NCBI GenBank assembly: GCA_027062325.1
Contig: JAMOTN010000043.1
Span: 1 to 6,733, forward strand
Length of the DNA: 6,733 nucleotides
Source of the DNA: a bacterium
GTDB taxonomy: Bacteria; JAMOTN01
Direction of reading: 5' to 3'
The stretch's first letter is position 1. Each line of letters begins with the position of its first letter. The notes under the pieces are model-generated. The model saw nothing but the letters and a program-made list of their open reading frames with translations. It searched no databases and was not told the origin of the DNA. Shown piece after piece: positions 3,484 to 6,733 of this stretch. The translations under genes were made by a program, and so were the position numbers.

Positions 3484-4029
3484 ATGAAGTGTATAAATAC
3501 TCGAGCGTTCACTTTGGTGGAGTTGATGATAACCATCACCATTATGGGGTTGCTTGCTGGAACTGCTGCTATTCATTATCAAAAAGCTATGGAGACTTCT
3601 CGAATTACTACGGCTAAAGAGCAACTGCAGGCCATAGTTTTTGCGATAGAGCAGTATGAACGTAACGAGGGAAAACCTTTTTGGAAAGTGCGCAACTTAT
3701 CTAAGTTGAAAAAATATCTATCCCGAAAAAAACTAACAGATCCTTGGGGACACAAATTTTATGTGGATGGAACATTTGTATATTCAGCAGGTCCTGATGG
3801 AGTTGTTGGGGGGCGTTATTCATCAGATGATATAAGAATGCGCTATAGGCGGGATCCGTTGATTAATAATCCTACTTTCCGCTCTAGGAATCGTGGTGTT
3901 ACCAGAGAAGCAGTTGGTTGGATTTTTAACCCACCTTATCAAGAGGGGGCAGAGTTGCAGGATAGAGATGTTGTTTATGTGGATCCTTTTATTGCTTATC
4001 AACAGCCAAATTCTCTTTGTGTTAAGTAG
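3484..4029 (+). CDS. GspG-like type II secretion/type IV pseudopilin with C-terminal extension
   Basis: A 181-residue prepilin-like protein. The short basic leader MKCINTRA is followed by FTLVELMITITIMGLLAG, giving a type IV prepilin peptidase site between A8 and F9, with Glu at mature position 5 (E13) and a hydrophobic N-terminal helix for membrane insertion and fibre assembly. DPWG (86-89) and SAGPDGVVGG plus DDI (101-117) match the C-terminal loop of the major pseudopilin GspG, where calcium binds. Ala rather than Gly precedes the cleavage site. GspG normally ends soon after this loop; here about 62 further residues follow, rich in R, N and P, with no match I recognise. ATG 3484 was chosen for its short leader and an AAGGCGGTGA site (3469-3478); ATG 3460 would give a 16-residue leader. 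No other secretion gene is visible. The gene downstream starts 45 nt later, so the two are probably one operon. Confidence 0.85.
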   Translation: MKCINTRAFTLVELMITITIMGLLAGTAAIHYQKAMETSRITTAKEQLQAIVFAIEQYERNEGKPFWKVRNLSKLKKYLSRKKLTDPWGHKFYVDGTFVYSAGPDGVVGGRYSSDDIRMRYRRDPLINNPTFRSRNRGVTREAVGWIFNPPYQEGAELQDRDVVYVDPFIAYQQPNSLCVK

Positions 4030-4061
4030 GAGATGGGAGTTGGTAGTTTCTGGAATAAATT

Positions 4062-4074: not shown

Positions 4075-6733
4075 ATGTGGTTGAGGCAGCTAAAAGTTAG
4101 TTTTGAATCTGGTAGGAGGAAAAACTATGGTAAATATGAGACAAGGCGTAGCGAAAAGGCACGAATTCGCCTTTGGATAGCGGCATTGGTATTGATTCCG
4201 TATTTTGTTTTGTTTACGATTCCAGTTTTTGCAAATCTTTTGGATCCATGGTTAAAAGAGAGGGGAAAACCCGTTCACGGGATTCGTACAGCTGCCTCAA
4301 CTGTTCACTTTATAACTGTTGGAGCTGCTTATCAAGATGGGGATAAGAAGTATGTTATTACACCTGATCAATGGAGTATTTCAGGTGCTATATGGTCAAC
4401 TTCTAGAATTGATACTAGAAAACCGTTTACCATTGAAGGAAAAATTTATTTGGGAAGGTACGATACTCAGGGGCATCGTGACATAAATGGTCGGTGGTGT
4501 TTTACAGGAGCAGATGGTGTGGCTTTTAACTTTTATGGAGGTTTAGATAGAGATGTCTCCACTGGTGGAAGTTTAGGTATAGGAGGTATGAGACCTGCTG
4601 TACATGTGGAGTTTGATACTTACTGTAATACTAGCGTTGATCCATGTTCGTATTATCAAACTTCTGCTGATCACTTGGGGATTGATGTAAATGGCAGTTT
4701 GCGCAGTTTAACAACACGGTCAGTTGGCAACATAGAAGATGGACGTGAACACTACTTTAAGATTTCCTATGATCCTTCGGCAAAAAGATTGAGGGTATGG
4801 TGGAATAATTCTGCTAATAAGATTTTTGATTACAGCATTGATTTAACTTCTCGGGTTGGCCGCTACTGCTGGATTGGTTTCTCGGGTGCAACAGGAGGAG
4901 GTTGTAATACTCAATACGTTGTCATAGACAAGATTGAGGCGACGTGGGAACCACTCAATACACAATTTGGTGTAAATTACGTGAAGATGTTTATTGATCC
5001 TGATAAACCAGAATTTGCTGAGATTTATCGTCAGGGATTTGGAAAGAGTCTAGCAGAGATTTCGAAAGTGCGACTTGCGGCTTCTAATGCTACACCGGCG
5101 CAAGAACAGAATGTGTATCAATGTGCGGATAATGTACCTGAGTGTATAGTAACTGATTGGTGGGATAATCGATGGCGTTACAGACGAAGGATAATAATTG
5201 ATAATCGGGAAGGAAGAGTAATGAGGGATGTTCAAGTAGTTGTGAGGTTAACTAGTTCCCAAATGGCGCACATAAGAACTGATATATATGGAAAAGGTGT
5301 TCGTTTTGTGGATAAAGACGGAAATATTCTTTATGCGTATCGTGCCATATTTGTGCCGGGAAACAGAGCTCTTTACGTTGTTCAAATACCAAGATTGAAT
5401 CCTGGGGAGAACTACATATGGATGTACTATGGAGTAGAGGGTAGCGCTTGGCAGAGTGGTTTAAATCAATATGCCCTTAATACAAATGTATTTGGTTCTC
5501 CTCGTGATGGACGTCGCACCCCGCTGAAATATTTCATAGTAAGAACTTGTGCAAGTTGTGTTGATGAAGGGGGTTATTGGGGTGCTTGGTGTGCGTACTG
5601 GGACGATGGATATAGAAGTTACGGAATGGGAGCAACTTTTCCTTTTGCAAACTTTACTACAAGCACTCTTTATGTTTCCCAAAACGGTGTCGTTGGTTTT
5701 TATGGATTTTGGTGGTGGGGACTTTGGTGGTGGTGGTGGTATTCAGGTGTATATCCAGCTCGTGTTGAGGTTATGGGAACGGATTTACACTGTGGAAATA
5801 CTTGTGTTTGGAGGAAAGGTGGTAATTGGCGAGTTATATGGGCAAGGGCGCACTGCTGTTGTTGGGGTTGGAGTGATTCACGTATTTACCTTAAAACAAA
5901 TGGAATTATAAAGGTGAGAATTGATTATAACAACATCGGGGGAGCCCAAGAGATTGCAAGTGGCTCAGGTGGTGTTGGAATTGATGCAGAGCAAGATCTT
6001 GGCCAATCTGGTGGTTGGTGGTCTTACTCCTATGGTTCTTCTCATGGGCACTTGTGGTTTAGAAATCGTGCTTACGATATAAACACTGGAAATGTAGCTT
6101 CAACTTCAATTCCTGCAGGTTATATATTCTACCCAATAGTTGTAAGAAATTGGAGAGTTAAAGTTGAAAATGAGGAAACAGGCAGTACTTGTTTCTCAAT
6201 CTATGGAGCTGACACTGGAGAGAATGGAGTTTGGTTTGATTCTCAATTTAAGTATCGTAAAAAGATAACTGTTAATATGCCTCAGTCTGCTAATAATGTT
6301 GTCATAGGGATACTTATGGATTCATCAGATGGATCAGACTTTTGGGGAAATGTCAGAAGTGATGGGTCCGATGTAGTTGTGACTAACAATAGTGGTCAGA
6401 TTTTAAGTGGTTATATGTGGTATTGGAATTATGGTGGGAGAAGAATGATCTTATTTGTGAAAGTGCCCAAAATGCAGTCAGGTGAAAACATACTTTACAT
6501 TTATTGGAAGGGGCCAAGCTCCTATTTTTCTCAAGCTCAGCGCAGTATCAATATATTTGGGGTTACCTATGATGGAACTAATAAGAGGATATGTTATGTT
6601 CCAGAAGGTCGTTATTGGAGTGAGAGAGTTAGCCCGTGGCTTACGTCTAGTTGGCCATACTATTCGGCGTATGAAATGTATTGGGGCTGGCGCGACGATA
6701 GGTGGTGGGGATGGAAATACATAAACCGGCGAT
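4075..6733 (+). CDS. Large exported L-type lectin / DUF2341 surface protein (3' end outside window)
   Basis: At least 886 residues without a stop. A basic N-terminal region (1-32) precedes one hydrophobic segment (33-53) ending VFA-N, a possible signal peptidase I site after A53; otherwise it is a membrane anchor. Residues about 70-292 form a legume/L-type lectin-like domain: ADGVAF (146-151), VEFDTYCN (178-185), DHLGIDVN (199-206) and GFSGATGG (268-275) match the carbohydrate- and metal-site blocks, with D147, E179, D181, N185 and H200 as likely ligands. After a linker (293-361) comes a DUF2341 domain from WWDNRWRYRRRI (362-373) to NVFG (471-474). An aromatic beta region follows (about 475-700) with YVSQNG (533-538), resembling nidogen-like surface domains. 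A second DUF2341 spans FKYRKKI (725-731) to NIFG (826-829), then another aromatic-rich segment. Cysteines are plentiful. It is probably a sugar-binding cell-surface protein or adhesin; its ligand is unknown. Confidence 0.82.
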   Translation, partial: MWLRQLKVSFESGRRKNYGKYETRRSEKARIRLWIAALVLIPYFVLFTIPVFANLLDPWLKERGKPVHGIRTAASTVHFITVGAAYQDGDKKYVITPDQWSISGAIWSTSRIDTRKPFTIEGKIYLGRYDTQGHRDINGRWCFTGADGVAFNFYGGLDRDVSTGGSLGIGGMRPAVHVEFDTYCNTSVDPCSYYQTSADHLGIDVNGSLRSLTTRSVGNIEDGREHYFKISYDPSAKRLRVWWNNSANKIFDYSIDLTSRVGRYCWIGFSGATGGGCNTQYVVIDKIEATWEPLNTQFGVNYVKMFIDPDKPEFAEIYRQGFGKSLAEISKVRLAASNATPAQEQNVYQCADNVPECIVTDWWDNRWRYRRRIIIDNREGRVMRDVQVVVRLTSSQMAHIRTDIYGKGVRFVDKDGNILYAYRAIFVPGNRALYVVQIPRLNPGENYIWMYYGVEGSAWQSGLNQYALNTNVFGSPRDGRRTPLKYFIVRTCASCVDEGGYWGAWCAYWDDGYRSYGMGATFPFANFTTSTLYVSQNGVVGFYGFWWWGLWWWWWYSGVYPARVEVMGTDLHCGNTCVWRKGGNWRVIWARAHCCCWGWSDSRIYLKTNGIIKVRIDYNNIGGAQEIASGSGGVGIDAEQDLGQSGGWWSYSYGSSHGHLWFRNRAYDINTGNVASTSIPAGYIFYPIVVRNWRVKVENEETGSTCFSIYGADTGENGVWFDSQFKYRKKITVNMPQSANNVVIGILMDSSDGSDFWGNVRSDGSDVVVTNNSGQILSGYMWYWNYGGRRMILFVKVPKMQSGENILYIYWKGPSSYFSQAQRSINIFGVTYDGTNKRICYVPEGRYWSERVSPWLTSSWPYYSAYEMYWGWRDDRWWGWKYINRR
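4114..4180 (+). other. Internal Shine-Dalgarno and 17-codon overlapping frame
   Basis: Inside the start of the lectin gene, AGGAGG (4114-4119) lies 7 nt before an out-of-frame ATG (4127) that opens a 17-codon reading frame (MVNMRQGVAKRHEFAFG) ending at TAG 4178-4180. The initiation signal is better than that of many real genes, but the same bases encode the basic GRRKN stretch of the large protein, so chance is likely. It could be a decoy or leader peptide, or a trace of a frame change near the start. Confidence 0.15.
5710..5739 (+). repeat. TGG triplet repeat encoding poly-tryptophan
   Basis: In the frame of the large surface protein there are three TGG codons (5710-5718), then GGA CTT, then five TGG codons (5725-5739). 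These give the residue run WWWGLWWWWW (546-555). Because the unit is a triplet, slippage would change tryptophan number without breaking the frame. Confidence 0.9.

Follow-up and report, generated by a model that had tools for sequence, protein, structure and literature searches.

Homorepeats of tryptophan are the rarest of all: a survey covering 1.45 million proteins counted 380,853 homorepeats of at least five residues, of which 49 were Trp (PMC6219797). DUF2341 proteins encoded in archaeal type IV pilus loci have been proposed, on the model of PilY, to be tip adhesins (PMC4858521); a screen of Methanococcus maripaludis for transformation defects yielded insertions in a DUF2341 gene (PMC10133366). 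The locus described here would bring these two subjects together, in that a run of Trp probably forms a genuine, in-frame loop of a divergent nidogen-like (NIDO-type) beta-sandwich within an exported multidomain lectin that also carries DUF2341 domains.

The window analysed, 6,733 nucleotides, is the entire contig C43 of a draft bacterial genome (1.65 Mb, 81 contigs, 83.9% complete), for which the RpoC relatives among the matches listed are scattered over phyla at about 41–58% identity. The last open reading frame of the contig, at 4075–6733 on the forward strand (as are the domains and the pseudopilin gene given below), runs off the contig end, so that the 3' end of this gene for a lectin/DUF2341/NIDO-like surface protein, with Pfam matches for the lectin and DUF2341 parts, is missing and at least 886 amino acids are encoded. 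When the missing end was sought, the end of the window showed no exact overlap of 15 or more bases with the other contigs (the first 20 kb in the case of long contigs). As the start, the ATG at 4075 is the better candidate, since GGGAGGG lies six bases upstream; the ATG at 4033 has AGGAG without the spacing. The ATG at 4075 follows, after 45 bp, the end of a gene for a type II secretion/type IV pseudopilin of the GspG-like kind (3484–4029; PF07963, E = 4.7e-6; PF08334, E = 2.6e-5), which also matches TIGR01710 with E = 2.5e-10, under the cut-off of that model. At the other end of the contig, bases 1–32 encode LAWNELLKA followed by a stop codon, which is nearly how the ATPase_2 gene at 95–1048 finishes (LAWNELLK and stop at 1021–1048); immediately before the latter gene, the contig apparently preserves the last codons of a tandem paralogue of this archaeal-type ATPase.

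The order of domains in the protein is L-type lectin, DUF2341, divergent NIDO-like beta-domain, second DUF2341 and a truncated end. After a basic N-terminus, a transmembrane segment, IAALVLIPYFVLFTIPVFA, is predicted at 4177–4233, the 19-residue stretch of highest hydropathy (2.43). The L-type (legume) lectin domain at 4306–4929 is predicted to bind sugar and matches PF18483 (E = 3.2e-34), PF00139 (E = 5.7e-14) and PDB 7elv (E = 8.6e-22); with 119 bits against a curated cut-off of 78.3, over profile positions 9–214 of 215, it belongs to PF18483. The protein as a whole matches PF10102 (DUF2341) with E = 5.4e-10 and 40 bits over two stretches, against a cut-off of 23.4, and is thus a member of that family too. 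The first copy (5155–5502) corresponds to the second of these stretches, with the match at 5290–5445 and with homologues in other genomes aligning here, and taken by itself scores 22 bits, slightly under the cut-off; the second copy (6265–6525) contains the best stretch (777–830) and a match within the same genome at 6361–6525. The region of about 250 residues between the two copies, which holds the Trp run, matched no family in Pfam, NCBIfam or PHROGs. From these features, the protein is predicted to be a membrane-anchored or exported multidomain lectin, in which DUF2341 domains would alternate with NIDO-like domains behind the N-terminal membrane segment and the lectin. Trp-rich sequence recurs at 6583–6733, with 8 Trp among the final 50 residues before the contig breaks off, and the pair of DUF2341 and Trp-rich domain may repeat beyond this point. 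Cysteine, too, is abundant in the Trp-run domain (CASC, HCGNTC and HCCCW at 5524–5880), which suggests disulphides or metal binding in an exported part. Elsewhere, the 2052-residue open reading frame at 1–6156 of contig L092, open at the contig start, resembles by eye a string of carboxypeptidase-regulatory-like repeats and would be another large surface protein of the lineage.

The sequence WWWGLWWWWW is encoded at 5710–5739 and comprises residues 546–555 when counted from ATG 4075 (560–569 from ATG 4033). The translation bears out the preliminary description in its counts of eight Trp among these ten residues and 13 Trp within residues 546–599, with the tract inside 5701–5757, and its view of the run as highly unusual is upheld by shuffling, by the open reading frames of the genome and by the published survey. 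At the protein's own Trp content of 5.4%, eight Trp in ten residues would arise by chance about 3e-6 times per protein, and among 20,000 shuffles of the protein the maximum was six. A Trp run longer than WW occurs in no other of the 963 open reading frames taken from 1.12 Mb of the genome, and the protein is the richest in Trp among them (5.4% vs. a mean of 1.34%), with other Trp clusters elsewhere along its length. The encoding by pure TGG repeats, to which attention had been drawn, is real but uninformative, TGG being the sole codon for Trp; the G-quadruplex potential of the GG repeats likewise follows from this codon. A leader for attenuation through Trp codons was considered and rejected because the run sits at codon 546 of a long open reading frame.

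The region around the run shows the pattern FPF, YVSxNGxxxF, a loop, strands and an NG turn, which recalls bacterial nidogen-like domains. A family set was assembled by searching 290 genomes with a generic consensus, which yielded clear members in 68; among the members chosen, 10 of 11 matched Pfam NIDO, and their profile matched RemA (PDB 8gl6) with E = 9.8e-17. Plain HMMER with this family profile found no more than weak collinear pieces on the window protein, and PF06119 gave no match up to E = 1 with the whole protein or E = 10 with the region by itself; the domain is described here as NIDO-like. In profile–profile comparison of the putative domain (5614–6000) with 41 bacterial NIDO-like domains (hhalign), 110 collinear columns aligned over residues 535–653 (counted from ATG 4033) with a score of 23.4, compared to 20.1 for the best of 100 shuffles. 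When the Trp run was masked, the score rose to 30.7 and the probability from 15% to 62%; this score was reached by none of 500 shuffles and none of 500 pieces of the genome's other proteins. Because masking lifts this moderate match above all controls, we take the region to be, in all likelihood, a NIDO-type domain of divergent sequence, to which the Trp run would be the foreign part. In the relatives, the equivalent loop has about 21–25 residues, is rich in Ser, Thr and Asn and contains 0–1 Trp; here it has 20 residues, which supports the view that the run replaces the normal loop at unchanged length. Two runs of AlphaFold2 without an alignment had mean pLDDT values of 33 and 46 and gave no usable model, so that the surface exposure of the Trp loop is deduced from the family alignment. 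The scan of viral contigs found no NIDO relatives usable for structure alignment.

Exact-peptide seeds found no homologue of the whole protein or of the Trp region in the genome contigs of 84,980 species, and none was found in viral contigs, phages or plasmids. A search of 386 genomes with the protein returned DUF2341 matches only, together with one spurious match, and among DUF2341 proteins gathered by family none had a relative of residues 500–740.

The preliminary description had raised the possibility of a local double frameshift, with poly-Gly in the +2 frame. The frame was misassigned: poly-Gly (GGT) arises in the +1 frame and poly-Val in the +2 frame. The concern itself was reasonable because, among 139 (TGG)5 or longer tracts in viral contigs, 109 read as Gly and one as Trp. 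(One viral contig, L266, carries (TGG)14 at 1930–1971, whose longest open frame, of 157 codons, reads as Trp; it could be a longer poly-Trp, or else a repeat that does not code for protein.) According to this explanation, the loop is or was poly-Gly, DFGGGDFGGGGG, and two opposite indels near the tract, whether assembly errors or real compensated changes, shifted it to Trp. The +1 frame is indeed open for 120 codons (5549–5911), and in total codon usage it scores about as high as frame 0; total scores fail to separate the frames because amino-acid composition is mixed in and rare residues lower frame 0. Scores limited to synonymous choice, in contrast, give +16.5 for frame 0 over 5549–5911 (true frames of the genome, 8.6 ± 4.6) and +0.2 for the +1 frame (shadow frames, −8.3 ± 5.7), and the preference holds both before the tract (+6.5 vs. 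+0.2) and after it (+8.7 vs. −2.0). Since synonymous codon use favours the Trp frame on both sides, a double frameshift at the tract is unlikely. The NIDO-like pattern also argues against it, because the flanks carry this pattern in frame 0, where the length of the loop and its flanking strands fit; Trp clusters elsewhere in the protein arise without any frameshift; and two opposite indels within tens of bases, outside homopolymers, would be improbable in a short-read assembly, which makes an error of this kind unlikely as well. Taken together, we consider a local double frameshift very improbable, although an old compensated pair of indels near the tract might have occurred.

The Trp-rich loop, GFWWWGLWWWWW, is encoded at 5704–5739 by a 15-bp unit, GGA[T/C]TTTGGTGGTGG, present twice and followed by TGGTGG. 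The two copies, GGATTTTGGTGGTGG and GGACTTTGGTGGTGG, are identical in 14 of 15 bases, and the whole reads GFWWW-GLWWW-WW. An in-frame tandem duplication of this unit (GFWWW/GLWWW) with TGG expansion would be the simplest origin, and it is put forward with some caution because Trp and Gly codons force much of the DNA identity. The earlier suggestion of a slippage-variable tract thus gains support as far as past slippage is concerned. The same tandem structure, (G[F/L]WWW)2WW, is what would be expected if the run were a nearly neutral product of slippage in a tolerant loop of an aromatic-rich protein, with no specific role; the Trp content of the protein throughout, its other Trp clusters and the variability of the loop sequence within the NIDO family are consistent with this reading. 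Against it, eight clustered, exposed Trp residues would be costly and prone to aggregation, hence selected against unless useful; the general rarity of poly-Trp (PMC6219797) points the same way, and slippage does not appear rampant in this genome because no other tract of (TGG)4 or longer was found in it. A neutral run therefore seems to us rather doubtful, although it is the foremost competitor of a functional loop. Cost also weighs against the functional reading, because the genome seems to be without trpA and trpC, which would make such use of Trp expensive: TrpA (PF00290) and IGPS/trpC (PF00218) were not found in this 84%-complete genome, compared to detection of both families in 14 of 14 control genomes. 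Auxotrophy for Trp is only a hint, given the incompleteness of the genome and the tendency of trp genes to lie together.

The role of the loop most compatible with these observations is that of an exposed aromatic patch that would add contact with a polysaccharide or an envelope. Stacking on an insoluble polysaccharide or on the envelope of another cell, the patch would sit beside the lectin's own sugar site, and we regard such a role in an adhesin as having about an even chance of being correct. The adhesin with a surface aromatic patch that had been envisaged beforehand fits the L-type lectin, the DUF2341 and NIDO-like domains and the pseudopilin neighbour; the overall plan of the protein (lectin, DUF2341, NIDO-like) is a familiar adhesin type. 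Several T2SSE-type ATPases are encoded in the genome, on other contigs, and no pilus assembly genes were found on this contig. An exported lectin-domain adhesin is the best frame for the protein because of the pseudopilin upstream, these ATPases and the DUF2341 precedents, and it may be exported or displayed with type IV pilus/type II secretion machinery, in the manner of pilus-associated DUF2341 adhesins. Insertion of the loop into a membrane interface, of a partner cell or of the cell itself, instead of stacking on sugar, has in its favour that the run contains no charged residue. Trp and Tyr prefer membrane interfaces, and other Trp-rich loops that bind membranes exist. However, the remainder of the protein is lectin- and adhesin-like, the Pfam search found no pore-forming or membrane-binding domain, and loop exposure is itself a deduction from the alignment, so we consider membrane insertion improbable. 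A more far-reaching version of the adhesin reading, in which a selected poly-Trp loop would constitute a new aromatic docking surface that binds crystalline polysaccharide or a partner membrane, would require import of Trp, as the organism appears to be without trpA and trpC; we would accord this version only a slim chance.

Known proteins hardly ever contain five or more Trp in a row, and the present run is a secure case in the loop of a recognisable domain. Its apparent duplication origin and its domain setting make it a test object for what a contiguous Trp surface does, whether it stacks on sugar, inserts into membranes or aggregates. The case also illustrates how synonymous codon choice allows an attractive frameshift explanation to be assessed when homologues are lacking.

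Compared to the Trp homorepeats of the published length class (PMC6219797), with which it shares a run of five Trp, the tract described here is longer and compound, with eight Trp in ten residues, and occupies a loop of a domain that can be recognised. With the DUF2341 (PF10102) proteins of type IV pilus loci, the protein shares two copies of the domain, its large size and predicted export, and an adjoining pilin-like gene; it differs from them in the added N-terminal L-type lectin domain, in its bacterial host and in that the neighbour is a pseudopilin of the type II secretion kind. The likeness to L-type (legume) lectins (PF18483/PF00139) is a complete domain match, whereas here the lectin is one domain among several and the Trp run lies outside it, about 250 residues downstream. 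The likeness to NIDO-type adhesin domains related to PF06119, such as that of RemA of Flavobacterium johnsoniae, consists of the 110 collinear columns, a similar loop length and a common order, namely FxF...YVSxNGxxxF, the loop, a segment in the place of IAPFWDDL and strands with an NG turn. In contrast to those domains, the region in the window lies under Pfam detection, the signature IAPFWDDL has eroded in it to RVEVMGTDL, and the Ser/Thr/Asn loop of the family is replaced by poly-Trp.
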